Shown in pieces: positions 4,016 to 56,537 of a DNA stretch of 64,000 bases (the first letter of the stretch is position 1; the number at the start of each line of letters is the position of its first letter). A program made the position numbers and the translations under genes. A model generated the notes under the pieces. That model had not been told where the DNA came from and made no database searches. It saw only the letters and a program-made list of their open reading frames with translations. The stretch covers positions 682,001-746,000 of the forward strand of contig CP015606.1 in NCBI GenBank assembly GCA_002284915.1, given 5' to 3'. This DNA is from Actinobacteria bacterium IMCC26077 (GTDB taxonomy: Bacteria; Actinomycetota; Actinomycetes; Nanopelagicales; Nanopelagicaceae).

Positions 4016-5290
4016 GTGAGCAGAGCGACCATGATTAAGAGCGATATAGCGAATCCTGATTTAGCGGCGCAAGGAAAGAAGCGGATTGAATGGGCAGAGC
4101 GGAGCATGCCGGTGCTTGCGCAGATTCGAGACCGGTTCACACTTGAGCAGCCATTCAAAGGGGTAAAGATTTCCGCGTGCATGCACGTCACCACGGAGAC
4201 CGCAAACTTGATGCGCACCCTTGCCGCTGGCGGAGCTGAATTAGCTCTCTGTGCCTCTAATCCGCTCTCTACCCAAGACGACACGGCAGCTGCCTTGGTT
4301 CACGAATATGGAATTAGCGTCTTCGCGAGAAATGCGATTGATCGCGATGGTTATTACAGTCACATCAATGCAGCCCTCGACATCGCACCACACTTTGTCT
4401 TCGATGATGGATGCGACCTAGTCAATACTTTGCACACAACTCGTCGTGAGTTGCTTCCAACGATTCTCGGCGGGTGCGAAGAGACCACCACCGGAGTCAT
4501 CCGATTGACTCAAATGTCGCGTGATGGAGCGCTCACCTTCCCAATGATCGCCGTCAATGACACCGACACAAAACATATGTTCGATAATCGTTACGGCACC
4601 GGTCAATCGACATTCGATGCCGTGTTCCGTGCAACGAATACCCTGGTAGCCGGCAAAATTGTTGTAGTCGCTGGCTTTGGGTATTGCGGTCGCGGCGTTG
4701 CAGAGCGCGCCAAGGGTCTAGGCGCCGAGGTAGTAATCACCGAGATTGATGCTACGAAAGCTCTCGACGCGATGATGCAGGGCTATCGAGTCATGACCAT
4801 GCATGAAGCCGCTCGAATCGGCGACATTTTCATCACTGTCACAGGAAATCGCGATGTACTTCGTGCAGAACATTTCCAGTCGATGAAAGATAATGCCATC
4901 ATGGCAAATTCAGGCCACTTCGATATTGAAATTGATGTTGCTTGGCTCGAGCAGAATGCCCGCAAGAATTCAAAGATTCGCCATCAAACCGATGAGTATG
5001 TAATGAAGGATGGTCGTCGCCTCCTGCTGCTTGCCGAAGGGCGTTTAGTAAACCTCGGTGCAGCTGAAGGACATCCCGCCGCGGTCATGGATCTCTCCTT
5101 TGCCGATCAAGCCCTTACCGCCGAGTGGCTCGTCAGTGAGGCGAAGAATCTCAAGCCAGGAGTTCACGAGGTTCCGGTAGCGATAGATAAAGAGGTGGCC
5201 GCGCTTAAGTTAAAGAGCATGGGTGGCGCCGTCGACGTTCTGACTCCCGCACAAGAGCAATACCTCAACTCGTGGGAGCATGGCAGCTAA
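4016..5290 (+). CDS. ahcY: S-adenosylhomocysteine hydrolase
   Basis: NAD-dependent enzyme splitting S-adenosylhomocysteine to adenosine and homocysteine, closing the methyl cycle. The 424-residue protein shows the substrate region (ACMHVTTETANL), the Rossmann loop GFGYCGRG and NSGHFDIEI, all typical. GTG 4016 is chosen because GGAAGG lies about 11 nt upstream; ATG 4031 is an alternative without a clear ribosome site. Most family members end in a conserved Tyr-containing tail, whereas this one ends in WEHGS. The stop overlaps the mtrA start by one base (TAATG), as in the mycobacterial sahH-mtrA neighbourhood. Confidence 0.95.
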   Translation: MSRATMIKSDIANPDLAAQGKKRIEWAERSMPVLAQIRDRFTLEQPFKGVKISACMHVTTETANLMRTLAAGGAELALCASNPLSTQDDTAAALVHEYGISVFARNAIDRDGYYSHINAALDIAPHFVFDDGCDLVNTLHTTRRELLPTILGGCEETTTGVIRLTQMSRDGALTFPMIAVNDTDTKHMFDNRYGTGQSTFDAVFRATNTLVAGKIVVVAGFGYCGRGVAERAKGLGAEVVITEIDATKALDAMMQGYRVMTMHEAARIGDIFITVTGNRDVLRAEHFQSMKDNAIMANSGHFDIEIDVAWLEQNARKNSKIRHQTDEYVMKDGRRLLLLAEGRLVNLGAAEGHPAAVMDLSFADQALTAEWLVSEAKNLKPGVHEVPVAIDKEVAALKLKSMGGAVDVLTPAQEQYLNSWEHGS

Positions 5291-48772: not shown

Positions 48773-48894
48773 AGAACTACCTCTTTTCTTCATTACCCCC
48801 TCATCTCAATGCCACGTGAAGTTTGCTAGCCGTCCACCTCTACAAACCAAGATTCAGAACGAAAACCGTTTCGTTTCGAGAGGACACCATCGAT

Positions 48895-50742
48895 ATGGCA
48901 AGAGCCAAATCTGTTTTATTAACTGCTGGAATCAGCGCAGCGCTAGCGTTGTCGATCAATTCCACTAGCGCATTTGCTGCAGTGCCGGCAGCGACCACCG
49001 CCGCCACTCCGATTTATGTTGTGTCTGAGAATGCAGCAGCCGCAACCATCACCCCAATCCTCACCACTGGCGACTCAGATGGAAAGGTGACGTGGGCAGG
49101 TACGCCCGATGGAATGGGTGTTTACAAGAATGCAAAGGGAACTGTCTCACTTCTTATTAATCATGAGTTGACGGCGGCAGATGAAGTGGTAGCTCGCACC
49201 ACGCGCGCATACGGCGGATTCGGTGCGCTCGTTAGCAAGGTGACTTTCGATCCAACTACTCAGAAGGTCACTGCGGTCGACGAGGCAATAAAGAGCATCA
49301 GCTGGTACGACTATGACGCAGGTGTCTATGGCGATTCCCCAGTAGGACCTGCCGGCCTTCCGGTAGATGCCTCGGGCTCTGCGCTCCACTCTAATAATCT
49401 CAACCGTCTCTGCTCGGCCTATCTATCGCCAGCTGGCTCCCTTCTTGGCGACTCGACCGAATCTGTCGAAATCACTACGACTGTTACCAACAAAGTGAAG
49501 ACGCCAGTAACAGATAAGAAGGGCAATGTCGTGCTCAAGAAGGGTAAACCGTCTTACAAGATGGTTGAAAAGACTTCCACTAAGACCGAGAGCAAGGATG
49601 TTCGTCGCGGTTGGGATGGCCCAGTGTTCCTCACTGGCGAAGAAGCTGGCGATGAATCGCGCGTCTTCGCACTAGAACCGGAGAGTGGGGCTGCTGTTCA
49701 ACTTCCACGTTTTGGTCTCGCCTCATGGGAGAACATCAACGTGGCACCAGCGACAGGTGATCGCACTATTGCCCTATTAAGCGAGGATGGCAGCGCCACA
49801 ATCGGCGCAGCAGGATCACTTCTTCCATCCGAACTCGCGAAGGGTAGCCAGCTCTTCCTCTACGAGGGAAACAAGAGCGCTTCAGGCACATTTGCTGATA
49901 AGGCAGGATTGACCAACGGTGCGCTCAGCGTCATGAAGATTGCGGATGCAATCGACGATATCGAAACTCGCGCCAAGTACGGCAAGGGCAAGAAGGCAAG
50001 CGTCAGCTTCGTGGAAATTCCATGGAATACCACCGGTGAGATGCAGAACATTGCAGCGCGACTCAAAGGCACATCCCTTGCTCGAATCGAAGATGGCGTT
50101 TTCGATCCAACAAACAAGAATGTCTTCTGGTTTGTTACCACAGAGTCGGCGGGAAATGCTGCAGCTACCACAAAAGCAGCTGATGGTAACGCTCGCGATG
50201 GTGGCGGTGTTTGGAAGCTCACCTTCACAGATATCGCAAACCCTGAGTTGGGTGCCTCTCTTGAACTCATTCTCGATGGCTCTGAAAACATCAATCTCAA
50301 CAAGCCAGATAATCTAGAGTTTGATTCCACTGGACGTTACTTGATGATTCAAGAGGATCCAGGCAACAACCCAACAATCTCTCGATTGATTGCCTTTGAT
50401 ACAAAAGAGAATAAAGAAGCAGTCGTTGCCAGGTTCGATTCGAAATATTTTGATCCAAAAAATACCTCAACTTTCATGACGCAAGATGAGGAAAGTTCGG
50501 GAATCATCCGCGCGACTGGATTCGTCTCAGGTGAAAGCTTCTTCTTCAATGCCCAGGTGCACCCGACAGCGGTCGCCGCACCGGTTACTGATGACAAGCT
50601 GGCAGCTGAAGTGGTCAAGATGCGCCCTGACATCACCTTCAAGGATGCTGCCCAGAAGGTGGCGTATAAGGAAGATGTGATCGAGGGTGGTCAGCTCTAC
50701 ATCTTGACGATAAAGGACTGGTCGCAGCTCACCTGGATCTAA
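48895..50742 (+). CDS. PhoX-like alkaline phosphatase (DUF839), secreted
   Basis: A 615-residue exported protein: signal peptide [20 protein letters not shown] to about residue 30, then a beta-propeller-like domain with [20 protein letters not shown] and the C-terminal [20 protein letters not shown] pattern typical of PhoX/DUF839. PhoX enzymes are Ca/Fe-dependent phosphomonoesterases releasing phosphate from organic esters. The leader is Sec-type, whereas many PhoX are Tat substrates, so phosphatase activity should be treated as likely rather than certain. ATG 48895 has GAGAGGAC upstream. It lies between pstB and pstC. Confidence 0.82.
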
Positions 50743-52996: not shown

Positions 52997-53066
52997 TGAA
53001 GGGTGCGGGAAGTTTCCTCCTCGCACCTAAGGTTGGAATGAAATGAAGTCTACGAAAGGACACTCG

Positions 53067-54086
53067 ATGCGTTTGCGTCACTCACTTATCACTATCGCTG
53101 CCGCGATGGGACTGATCTTCTCCTCCACTACCGCGGCTAGCGCAGCCGATCTCACGGGATCGGGCTCATCATTTGCCTTTAAGTACATCACCGCATGCAA
53201 AGCAAGCAGTGGCCACAACGTCACTTACTCGTCAACCGGTTCGGGAACGGGCCGTAATAATTTCAATGACGGTGTAACGGACTTTGGCGCTTCAGACGCA
53301 GCAAGTGCGCTCTCGAAGGCAACCGGAAAGTATCTCTATATTCCAGTAGTCGGTGGTCCAATCTCCGTTCTTTACAATGTTCCTGAGGCGAAAACCCAAC
53401 TTAAACTTGACGCTCCGACATTGGCAAAGATTCTTCGTGGCTCAATTGATCGTTGGAATGATGGGGCAATTGGTGCACTCAATCCGGGTGTAACGTTGCC
53501 AAAGAAGCCAATCATCGTTGTCTATCGCTCGGCATCCTCTGGAACAACAGAGAATATGACTGACTATCTCAACAAGGTGGCTCCAAAGGAGTGGCCGAAA
53601 GTTAAAAACGGAACCTTTACATCAGCGACACCGTCAATGCCGCGCGGCGCCAAGGGTGCAGCGAACTCTCAAGTGCTTGTATCGACCGTTCGCTCCACCA
53701 AATATTCAATCGGCTATGCCGACCTCTCAGATGCGATTTCTAGCAAGATGCCATTTGCATCGATGAAGAATGAGAACGGCGAGTTCATCTCACCAACGCC
53801 AGAGGCAGCTGCGAAATTCCTCGGGGATTTTGATAAGGCAGATCCGCTAACGGGTGTAGCAATCGACTTCACAAAGAAAGTTGCTGGTGGTTACAACATG
53901 TCATTGTTCACTTATGCAATTGCGCCGAAGGCGGGTGGAGTCAAGCCAGGCACGAACGCTCCAGCAGTCAAGGAGCTGGTCGATCACCTACTTACCAAGT
54001 GCAAAGATGGAACTGCTCTTGGGTACTCACCAATCTCGGGATCTCTATTAACAGCAGCAAAAGCTCTTGTAGATCAAATCGGTTAA
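53067..54086 (+). CDS. pstS: phosphate-binding protein PstS
   Basis: A 339-residue solute-binding protein. Phosphate-loop segments are visible: LTGSGSSFAF, VTYSSTGSGTGRNNFNDG, DFGASDA and VVYRSASSGTTENMTDYL. ATG 53067 (MRLRHSLITIAAAMGL) has GAAAGGA 6 nt upstream; ATG 53043 would add eight residues. The leader ends TTAASAAD, a signal peptidase I type site with no lipobox Cys, whereas most Gram-positive PstS proteins are lipoproteins. Confidence 0.94.
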   Translation: MRLRHSLITIAAAMGLIFSSTTAASAADLTGSGSSFAFKYITACKASSGHNVTYSSTGSGTGRNNFNDGVTDFGASDAASALSKATGKYLYIPVVGGPISVLYNVPEAKTQLKLDAPTLAKILRGSIDRWNDGAIGALNPGVTLPKKPIIVVYRSASSGTTENMTDYLNKVAPKEWPKVKNGTFTSATPSMPRGAKGAANSQVLVSTVRSTKYSIGYADLSDAISSKMPFASMKNENGEFISPTPEAAAKFLGDFDKADPLTGVAIDFTKKVAGGYNMSLFTYAIAPKAGGVKPGTNAPAVKELVDHLLTKCKDGTALGYSPISGSLLTAAKALVDQIG

Positions 54087-54101
54087 TTTCCGGAGTGATC
54101 C

Positions 54102-54142
54102 GAATGGGCAGACTAGAACTAGTCTGCCCATTCTCTTTTTTT
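54102..54142 (+). terminator. intrinsic terminator after pstS
   Basis: A 15-bp perfect stem: GAATGGGCAGACTAG (54102-54116) with CTAGTCTGCCCATTC (54119-54133), followed by TCTTTTTTT. This is the strongest terminator in the window. Confidence 0.95.
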
Positions 54143-54152
54143 GAGAGGAAAA

Positions 54153-54722
54153 CTAGGGTTGTGGGCTAGCAGAGTTGGGCGCAGCAAATATTTCGCTCCG
54201 ATAATAGGCAAGTTCTCTGATTGAATCTTGCGCATCACTAAGAGCTCGATGATTTCCAGTCTTTTCAGGGGCCTTGAAGTATTTGGAGGGATACCAGCGC
54301 TTGGCTAACTCCTTTATCGATGAAACATCAATCGTTCGGTAATGGAGAAATTGGTTGAGCTGCGGCATATCCCTGGCAATGAAACTCCGGTCCATCCAAG
54401 GACTGTTTCCTCCAAGTGGAGATTTTCCTGCCGGTACTTGCATTCGCTCGAGATAACCGAGTATCAGCTCCTCTGCCTTGCTTAGGCTGTTGCCCAAATG
54501 AAGAACCTCCAAGAGACCAGATTCCTGATGCATGTTGCGGACGAAATCACTCATCTGCGTCAGCGAGCTCTCGGGTGGAAGAATTACTACTTCAAGACCC
54601 GGGTCAAGAATCTGTAATTCTTGGTCGGTGATGACCACTCCGACTTCAATGAGAGCATCGACGGATAAGTCGAGCCCGGTCATCTCGCAATCGATCCAGA
54701 CGATAGGTACGTCAGCATTCAT
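54153..54722 (-). CDS. orn: oligoribonuclease
   Basis: A 189-residue DEDDh 3'-5' exonuclease that finishes RNA decay by degrading dinucleotides and pGpG. Motif ExoI is WIDCEMTGLDL, ExoII lies around NSPWMDRSFIARDMPQL, and ExoIII NHRALSDAQDSIREL holds the catalytic His and Asp. The start codon lies two bases after the tRNA-Arg discriminator base on the same strand, with no room for a ribosome site; tRNA 3' processing would leave an almost leaderless orn mRNA. Confidence 0.95.
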   Translation of the reverse strand: MNADVPIVWIDCEMTGLDLSVDALIEVGVVITDQELQILDPGLEVVILPPESSLTQMSDFVRNMHQESGLLEVLHLGNSLSKAEELILGYLERMQVPAGKSPLGGNSPWMDRSFIARDMPQLNQFLHYRTIDVSSIKELAKRWYPSKYFKAPEKTGNHRALSDAQDSIRELAYYRSEIFAAPNSASPQP

Positions 54723-54723
54723 G

Positions 54724-54797
54724 CGCGCCCGGCAGGAATCGAACCTGCGACAACCCGCTTAGAAGGCGGGTGCTCTATCCGACTGAGCTACGGGCGC
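54724..54797 (-). tRNA. tRNA-Arg (TCT)
   Basis: The 74-nt reverse strand forms acceptor GCGCCCG/CGGGCGC, anticodon stem CCCGC/GCGGG with loop CTTCTAA (anticodon TCT) and T loop TTCGATT. CCA is not encoded. The orn start codon begins one nucleotide beyond the discriminator base. Confidence 0.97.
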
Positions 54798-54856
54798 AAA
54801 GTCGGTTTGATACTCATCGCAATGGTACCGGTTCATAGTTCGCACCCTTGAGGCGA

Positions 54857-54862: not shown

Positions 54863-54869
54863 GTCGCCT

Positions 54870-56537
54870 ATGGCTGAGTTCATTTACACGATGAAGAAGG
54901 CGCGCAAAGCGCACGGTGACAAGGTAATTCTTGATGACGTCACCCTGATGTTCTTGCCTGGCGCCAAGATCGGCGTTGTTGGTCCTAATGGCGCCGGTAA
55001 GTCGACGGTGCTCCAGATTATGGCGGGCCTTCAGCAACCTTCGAATGGCGAGGCATATCTGACGCCTGGGTACACCGTTGGAATCTTGCTCCAAGAGCCG
55101 CCGCTCAACGAAGAGAAGAACGTTCTCGAGAATGTCCAAGAGGGCGTTGCTGAGATCATGAACATGCTCAATCGCTTCAATGAAATCTCAGATTTGATGT
55201 CCGCCCCAGATGCTGATTACGACACTCTGCTCGCAGAGATGGGAAATCTCCAAGAGAAGCTTGATCACGCAAATGCATGGGAGATCGATTCACGATTAGA
55301 GCAGGCAATGGATGCGCTCCGCTGTCCACCTCCTGATGCCGATGTAAAAGTCCTCTCTGGTGGCGAGCGACGTCGAGTCGCGCTCTGCAAACTATTGCTG
55401 CAAGCACCAGATTTACTGCTCCTCGATGAACCAACGAACCACCTCGATGCCGAATCAGTCCTCTGGCTGGAACAACATTTGGCAAAGTACAACGGCACTG
55501 TCGTGGCAATCACTCACGATCGCTACTTCCTCGACAACGTGGCGGAATGGATCCTCGAACTTGACCGTGGTCGGGCTTATCCCTACGAAGGTAATTACTC
55601 AACCTACCTTGAGACCAAGGCTCAGCGTCTAAAGATCGAAGGGCAGAAGGATGCTAAGCGAGCCAAGCGACTTGCCGAAGAGCTTGAGTGGGTCAGACAG
55701 AATGCAAAAGGTCGTCAGGTCAAACAGAAAGCGCGTCTGGCTCGATACGAAGAGATGGCTGCGGAAGCTGAGAAGATGCGAAAGCTCGACTTCGAAGAGA
55801 TCCAGATTCCACCAGGACCACGACTTGGTAACGTCGTCGTTGAAGTTGAGAACCTGGTTAAGGGTTTTGGCGATCGACTGCTCTTTGATGGCCTCTCATT
55901 CACCCTGCCACGTAACGGAATCGTCGGTGTCATTGGACCAAACGGCGCTGGCAAGACCACGTTATTCAAGATGATTCAAGGACTTGAGAAACCAGATAGC
56001 GGCAATATCAAGATTGGCGAGACCGTTTCGATCTCGTATGTCGATCAGAATCGTTCAGGTATCGATCCGAAGAAGACGCTCTGGGAAGTCGTCTCCGAAG
56101 GGCTCGACATCATGAAAGTTGGACAGGTCGAGATTCCATCTCGCGCCTACGTCTCTACATTCGGTTTCAAAGGCCCTGACCAACAGAAGCCTGCGGGCGT
56201 GCTCTCTGGCGGCGAACGGAACCGGTTGAACCTCGCGCTCACCTTGAAGATGGGAGGCAATCTCCTACTTCTTGACGAACCAACGAATGATCTCGATGTC
56301 GAAACTTTAGGCAGCCTCGAAAATGCTCTCTTGAATTTCCCTGGTTGCGCTGTTGTGATCTCGCACGATCGTTGGTTCTTGGATCGTGTTGCAACGCACA
56401 TCCTCGCTTACGAAGGTGAGTCGCAATGGTTCTGGTTCGAGGGCAACTTCGAGTCTTATGAAGCGAACAAAATAGAGCGGCTCGGGCCAGAAGCTTCCAG
56501 GCCACATCGTGTTACCTACCGAAAGTTGACCCGATAA
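54870..56537 (+). CDS. ettA: ABC-F translation factor EttA (energy-dependent translational throttle)
   Basis: A 555-residue duplicated ABC ATPase without membrane segments: Walker A GPNGAGKST, signature LSGGERRRVALC and Walker B LLLLDEPTNHLD in the first half; GPNGAGKTTLF, LSGGERNRLNLA and LLLLDEPTNDLD in the second, joined by a charged linker. The N terminus MAEFIYTMKKARKAHGDK is typical of EttA, which binds the ribosomal E site and gates initiation according to the ATP/ADP ratio. The thioesterase gene overlaps its stop (TAATG). Confidence 0.95.
   Translation: MAEFIYTMKKARKAHGDKVILDDVTLMFLPGAKIGVVGPNGAGKSTVLQIMAGLQQPSNGEAYLTPGYTVGILLQEPPLNEEKNVLENVQEGVAEIMNMLNRFNEISDLMSAPDADYDTLLAEMGNLQEKLDHANAWEIDSRLEQAMDALRCPPPDADVKVLSGGERRRVALCKLLLQAPDLLLLDEPTNHLDAESVLWLEQHLAKYNGTVVAITHDRYFLDNVAEWILELDRGRAYPYEGNYSTYLETKAQRLKIEGQKDAKRAKRLAEELEWVRQNAKGRQVKQKARLARYEEMAAEAEKMRKLDFEEIQIPPGPRLGNVVVEVENLVKGFGDRLLFDGLSFTLPRNGIVGVIGPNGAGKTTLFKMIQGLEKPDSGNIKIGETVSISYVDQNRSGIDPKKTLWEVVSEGLDIMKVGQVEIPSRAYVSTFGFKGPDQQKPAGVLSGGERNRLNLALTLKMGGNLLLLDEPTNDLDVETLGSLENALLNFPGCAVVISHDRWFLDRVATHILAYEGESQWFWFEGNFESYEANKIERLGPEASRPHRVTYRKLTR

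Follow-up and report, generated by a model that had tools for sequence, protein, structure and literature searches.

The window, a stretch of 64,000 nucleotides (nt) from Actinobacteria bacterium IMCC26077 (contig CP015606.1, positions 682,001 to 746,000), carries on its minus strand a tRNA-Arg(TCT) gene that is followed, after a single C, by the ATG of orn, the gene for oligoribonuclease. We propose that this junction is a case of tRNA punctuation in a bacterium, in which a cut after C74, the base behind the discriminator, would produce a leaderless orn mRNA. Judged from sequence comparison, we give this reading a probability of about 0.75. It is carried by the junction itself, by its conservation and recurrence in the family (Nanopelagicaceae), by the lack of a recognisable orn promoter at the junction and by the presence of C74 in every tRNA surveyed.

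The tRNA-Arg(TCT)-orn junction and its conservation

Read on the minus strand, the tRNA has the acceptor stem GCGCCCG/CGGGCGC, which closes at C54725 and is followed by the discriminator G54724, C54723 and the orn ATG (54722-54720). Infernal with RF00005 ends the tRNA at genome position 736724, which is window position 54724, and ARAGORN ends it at 54723; the two programs agree on tRNA-Arg(TCT) and differ solely in whether C54723 is counted. The order of discriminator, one C and ATG, which the first-pass annotation of the window had described, is thus confirmed by the sequence and by both programs. CCA is not encoded at this locus. The open reading frame (ORF) 54722-54153 matches the oligoribonuclease model NF003765 of NCBIfam with 228 bits (cut-off 106) and contains the DEDDh residues D11, E13, D111, H158 and D163, which we take to be the catalytic ones and which are invariant across five aligned sequences; both the family model and these residues identify it as Orn. 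ATG 54722 is the only in-frame ATG, GTG or TTG before the catalytic WIDCE motif, and the gap of 1 nt between tRNA and ATG holds no fitting ribosome-binding site. The coding sequence begins within a few nucleotides of the 3´ end of a same-strand tRNA, as expected for tRNA punctuation. The features of the junction are as follows.

54822..54827, minus strand: TACCAT, a TAnnnT hexamer 24 nt upstream of the tRNA that may serve the tRNA-orn transcript as its -10 element; a consensus match only
54724..54797, minus strand: tRNA-Arg(TCT), 74 nt to the discriminator G; RF00005 73.2 bits (genome 736724-736797), also found by ARAGORN
54723..54723, minus strand: C74, the base after the discriminator, probably retained by the tRNA as the first C of CCA, going by the surveys of this base described below
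54153..54722, minus strand: orn, oligoribonuclease, with its ATG directly after C74; NF003765 and DEDDh residues

Relatives were searched with a pattern running from the T-loop of tRNA-Arg(TCT) to an orn motif, with a free gap of 20-50 bases (31 gap lengths allowed). It matched 41 of 296 family genomes, namely the window's genome and 40 genomes of the genus g16; of the 108 genomes with a completeness of 90% or more and a contamination of 5% or less, it matched 23. Discriminator, C, ATG and spacing are unchanged in all 41 matches listed, despite the free gap. Two more genomes, G001 of the window's genus and G198 (at a contig edge), bring the abutting loci to 43, all with the exact spacing; this number is a lower bound, as many of the 296 genomes are incomplete. 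An orn match is present in 235 family genomes. From these, 108 loci were classified (106 of the family and two of the outgroups G048 and G055, with L015 and L031 omitted as duplicates of G030 and G000), and a further 19, all non-abutting, were read upstream only; the orn start in the 108 loci was set by rule as the ATG or GTG nearest the motif within 15-39 nt. Judged from these comparisons, the exact spacing is not chance, and conservation in relatives, the check proposed together with the original description, holds in 43 family genomes.

In G001, the nearest abutting relative (L152, C221 ~4373-4786, minus strand), orn lacks about 40 in-frame internal codons, including the catalytic DxE, while the tRNA, the C and the ATG are intact. 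This gap may be a real loss or a fault of metagenome assembly.

Promoters and the probable tRNA cut site

Where orn does not abut the tRNA, it has a promoter-like element of its own. The motif TAnnnT lies 6-9 nt before the orn start in 64 of the 65 non-abutting loci (63 family, two outgroups), at 6 nt in 33 of the 65 and at 7 nt in 22; letter shuffles of the same loci gave the motif in 4.6 on average and in 14 at most. It is also present in 19/19 of the loci read upstream only, which makes 83 of 84. A -10 element (TAnnnT) at a mean distance of 6.3 nt from the start codon is the published mark of leaderless transcription in Streptomyces lividans (PMC8079986). The position of this mark and the locus counts together suggest that orn is leaderless in both arrangements seen in the family, whether transcription begins at its start codon or, where the promoter is absent, it stands behind a tRNA.

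At the junction itself, no mark of leaderless initiation was found: TAnnnT occurs 4-9 nt before the orn ATG in 0/42 abutting loci (L200 is left out of this count, its upstream stretch being too short), and at any of the 50 distances tried in only one of the 42. TAnnnT is found instead upstream of the tRNA, 12-38 nt before tRNA-Arg(TCT) in 39/39 abutting loci (L041 not included) and in 23/23 non-abutting loci. A promoter inside the tRNA, with the tRNA as a mere upstream neighbour, had been named as a finding that would overturn the proposal, and in relatives orn does normally have a leaderless-type promoter with TAnnnT 6-7 nt upstream; given the counts at the abutting loci, this explanation can hardly be right and we reject it. 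Of the original proposal, the sequence supports the conserved spacing, the leaderless start of orn and the lack of a recognisable promoter of its own. Co-transcription of the tRNA and orn is likewise suggested, because no orn promoter is seen and the gap is 1 nt. A scan behind 25 non-abutting tRNA-Arg genes found perfect stems of at least 12 base pairs (bp) in five (L158, L163, L168, L170 and L177), too few to establish that relatives generally have a terminator between the two genes.

Upstream of several non-abutting orn genes (e.g. L017, L028 and L120), repeats like GGTGAAC/GGTGAAA about 11 nt apart lie between orn and a divergent pst operon. These presumably resemble the PHO box, and non-abutting orn may share a phosphate-regulated intergenic region with the pst operon.

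The C of the spacer probably belongs to the tRNA rather than to orn. A C stands behind the discriminator in 47/47, 40/40, 38/38 and 40/40 tRNA hits of four genomes (165/165), whether or not a gene follows, and CCA is encoded by only 13, 13, 16 and 10 of these hits. C also follows the discriminator in 91/91 tRNAs near orn in named records (80 of them tRNA-His). Selection of the C for orn is rejected, since C74 is universal where surveyed. Differential RNA sequencing showed that most CCA-encoding tRNAs of Streptomyces coelicolor (PMC4681348) and example tRNAs of Propionibacterium acnes (PMC3848588) are cut between the two Cs of CCA; no tRNase Z is obvious in P. acnes (PMC3848588). A cut after C74 would account for the constant C as well as the unvarying gap, with the start codon lying right against the stretch that the tRNA retains, and the mRNAs would begin with the A or G of their start codons. 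Taken together, the universal C74 and the actinobacterial cuts between the Cs indicate that the orn mRNA most likely begins at the AUG itself, at A54722.

The first-pass annotation had instead assigned the 3´ processing to RNase Z, which mostly cuts just behind the discriminator (PMC10673834), so that C54723 would remain as a 1-nt leader, C-AUG. Both parts are doubtful. No protein of the window's genome (99.93% complete) matches the RNase Z model TIGR02651 above its cut-off, a cut-off that five of 14 control genomes also miss, and a very diverged RNase Z is possible; of the metallo-beta-lactamase (Lactamase_B_2) matches, one is an RNase J, another a ComEC-like protein, and the third hydrolase looks glyoxalase-like by eye. 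A leader of C also fits poorly with C74 behind 165/165 tRNA hits, as there is no obvious reason for a C that is removed and added again, and with the published cuts between the Cs of CCA. We therefore regard cleavage by RNase Z with a 1-nt leader as unlikely.

In the proposed mechanism, one transcript would start upstream of tRNA-Arg(TCT) and read through orn. RNase P would remove the 5´ leader of the tRNA, a candidate actinobacterial endonuclease would cut after C74, and the CCA-adding enzyme would supply C75 and A76. The same cut would free an orn mRNA that starts with the A of its AUG and bears a 5´ monophosphate, to be translated as a leaderless mRNA. The tRNA 3´ end would thus take over the role that the TAnnnT promoter plays in relatives, which is to make the RNA begin at the start codon.

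Other junction genes and the origin of the arrangement

Genes other than orn begin at the same offset. An ATG or GTG exactly one base after the discriminator, with at least 60 open codons, was found behind five of 47 tRNA hits in the window's genome, and these junctions are Arg(TCT)-orn, Arg(TCG)-Sbt_1 transporter (bicarbonate-type), Ala(GGC)-SDR, Pro(GGG)-ClsA-like enzyme and Leu(CAA)-ANTAR regulator. Behind tRNA-Phe of the same genome, the ATG lies three bases further on, before an Oxidored_FMN gene. G030 of g16 has three junctions among 40 tRNA hits (orn, an EamA transporter and the ANTAR regulator), and G021 has three among 38 (homocysteine methyltransferase, an ACT-domain protein and the ANTAR regulator). 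In these three family genomes, 11 of 125 tRNA hits have an ORF at the exact offset, against a mean of 0.77 at the other 60 offsets (0 to 60). The Poisson tail is 7e-10 for 11 hits at one offset and 1.5e-6 for the eight distinct tRNA-gene pairs, the latter being the fairer figure because the junction rows are partly homologous.

Two of these junctions were followed through the family. Of 22 family loci of the ANTAR regulator, 18 have the exact junction with tRNA-Leu(CAA), in frame and open; in the four that have no tRNA, and in outgroup G048, an in-frame start is preceded by TAnnnT at 6 nt. Of 20 family loci of clsA, 11 have the exact, in-frame and open junction with tRNA-Pro(GGG), and six have no tRNA-Pro within 400 nt. 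A special circuit that links RNA decay to tRNA maturation is unsupported, as the other junction genes are functionally unrelated, encoding a transporter, an SDR protein, a ClsA-like enzyme, an ANTAR regulator and others; the earlier suggestion that orn expression is tied to tRNA maturation finds no support beyond adjacency. In G021 (C1:890277-890350), tRNA-Met(CAT) abuts the gene for homocysteine S-methyltransferase, which is the only junction with an obvious link between amino acid and enzyme.

The tRNA genes have peculiarities of their own. With a length of just 73 nt, tRNA-Leu(CAA) and tRNA-Leu(TAA) (G000:C1:1147514-1147586 and 545840-545912; also in G021 and G030) lack, in all three genomes, the long variable arm usual for leucine tRNAs. 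Four odd tRNA-like hits lie at G000:C1:190733-194740: two are assigned the four-base anticodons aacg and cacg by ARAGORN, one is Val(aac) and one is unclassified. This cluster perhaps represents decaying tRNA copies or a mobile region.

The gene order of relatives bears on how the orn junction arose. Most of the non-abutting relatives that were compared have the tRNA ~4.2-4.5 kilobases (kb) upstream of orn on the same strand, and longer distances are ~6 kb (three g2 genomes), 7 kb (G099), 11.5 kb (G007) and 18 kb (G094). Four genes, pstS, pstB, pstA and pstC, lie between the two in G289, and the intervening genes of G003, G019 and G302 look like these by size and order. The abutting g16 loci have the order ettA, tRNA-Arg, orn and then, in most cases, tRNA-His, and the pst operon is absent from the space between tRNA-Arg and orn. 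The window is arranged differently: orn lies between tRNA-Arg and pstS, and the pst genes come after it; G001 looks the same by eye. The neighbours in the window are listed here.

54867..56537, plus strand: ettA, divergent, upstream of the tRNA; NF008775 of NCBIfam and TIGR03719
54103..54132, minus strand: 13-bp hairpin behind orn, common to the convergent pstS; the fold of 54090-54152 has -28 kcal/mol and z -5.9
53043..54086, plus strand: pstS, convergent with orn; TIGR00975 201.7 bits, cut-off 205

The same ettA neighbour is present in the abutting loci that have enough upstream sequence. The T-run of the hairpin is on the pstS strand, so that for orn the hairpin is a putative terminator. 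The pst order in the window is pstS, pstA, pstC, a secreted-looking protein and pstB, followed by tRNA-His. The secreted-looking protein (48823-50742, plus strand, 639 amino acids) has no NCBIfam match at 1e-40 and no Pfam match at 1e-10.

As read from gene order, two different rearrangements, one in g16 and one in the window and G001, reached the same junction. On a tree of orn, from which L053 (43 amino acids) was omitted, the abutting state changes at least 13 times by parsimony, at least four of them on starred branches; the 13 changes are a count under a quick tree with several long branches, not measured events. The approximately unbiased (AU) test rejects a single clade of all abutting rows (p 1.5e-7, 42 rows versus 65) and a clade of the g16 abutting rows alone (p 3.1e-6, 40 rows versus 67), both groups having been named after the quick tree was seen. 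The tRNA-start arrangement seems, from these comparisons, to have arisen more than once.

The spacing might also reflect common descent, if one fusion had spread between species by recombination. Abutting and non-abutting orn are intermixed among close g16 relatives, and recombination among g16 species can explain part of the state changes. However, the junction is flanked by lineage-specific sequence both in the orn N-terminus and in the tRNA, the genes behind orn are not the same in the window as in g16, and the AU test stands against a single origin. We consider one spread fusion rather unlikely; punctuation could still operate under it. Compaction with mutational bias is a further alternative, in which deletions between short repeats (e.g. 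CAT/CAT) leave the spacing behind for no functional need. The genomes are small, and in several non-abutting relatives the tRNA is immediately followed by CAT or CA, but compaction does not explain the exact junctions of other genes with diverged N-termini and both GTG and ATG starts, the two rearrangement routes or the leaderless-type genes where no tRNA abuts, and we regard it as very improbable.

Several observations weigh against tRNA punctuation. The orn junction is not fixed: it is missing from G002, G003 and G004 of the window's genus, and in G031 the tRNA lies ~155 nt upstream of an orn with its own promoter. Among the best 80 orn loci of a longer list of named records, a few of them from the family, none is abutting; in Microbacterium memoriense (L394), one of these 80, tRNA-Arg(TCT) ends 105 nt before the orn motif. 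Outgroup G048 has no junction at 40 surveyed tRNA hits (of its 45), and outside the family the regulator junction is found in 0/8 loci and the clsA junction in 0/10. Within the family, three of 14 clsA loci with tRNA-Pro upstream have no ATG or GTG at the junction. The published maps are mixed, with a CCA-encoding tRNA of P. acnes cut a few nucleotides downstream, and in both maps other tRNAs are cut a few nucleotides downstream, which argues against a single rule (PMC3848588, PMC4681348); S. coelicolor also has a tRNase Z homologue (PMC4681348).

Comparison with known systems and significance

In animal mitochondria, excision of tRNAs punctuates the transcript and sets mRNA 5´ ends at or near start codons, which gives leaderless mRNAs. 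Excision of tRNA-Arg(TCT) would likewise set the 5´ end of orn mRNA at the start codon. Unlike mitochondria, the present case concerns a bacterial chromosome with a single tRNA-mRNA unit that has its own promoter-like element, no RNase Z was found in the window's genome, and a minority of genes is involved, gained more than once.

Leaderless mRNAs made by initiation at the start codon are described for actinobacteria, in S. lividans (PMC8079986) and in mycobacteria (PMC4633059). The proposed orn mRNA shares with them its start at AUG or GUG, and orn appears to be of this type in relatives without the tRNA; it differs in that its 5´ end would be made by processing, with a monophosphate expected and no promoter at the gene. 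Cleavage behind C74, of the kind mapped in P. acnes and S. coelicolor, would match the present junction exactly; the accessible parts of these reports make no mention of an mRNA released by that cut (PMC3848588, PMC4681348). The leaderless mRNAs that MazF makes in Escherichia coli are also products of processing, although MazF is a toxin RNase that leaves a 5´ hydroxyl and acts under stress, whereas the cut at orn would be a housekeeping tRNA cut. The literature surveyed also includes plant dicistronic transcripts and an archaeal tRNA-snoRNA case (PMC4247193). In the part of the literature surveyed, we found no bacterial mRNA whose leaderless 5´ end comes from tRNA processing, and the novelty of the proposal is provisional to that extent.

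If true, the arrangement would be the bacterial equivalent of tRNA punctuation in mitochondria. Its rule is clear, with the start codon immediately following C74, and any actinobacterium rich in leaderless genes could serve to test it. Two questions would become testable: which nuclease makes the cut after C74 in actinobacterial tRNAs, and whether ribosomes use leaderless mRNAs with a 5´ monophosphate as well as those with a triphosphate. It is also a warning for gene finders and start-site maps, since junction genes would have neither a promoter nor a ribosome-binding site of their own. For the family as a whole, we lean towards the view that tRNA 3´ processing is a general and recurrently evolved means of defining mRNA 5´ ends, by which leaderless genes may trade their promoter for an abutting tRNA if the start codon directly follows C74, and a candidate endonuclease would yield 5´-monophosphate AUG or GUG mRNAs behind about one in ten tRNA genes.
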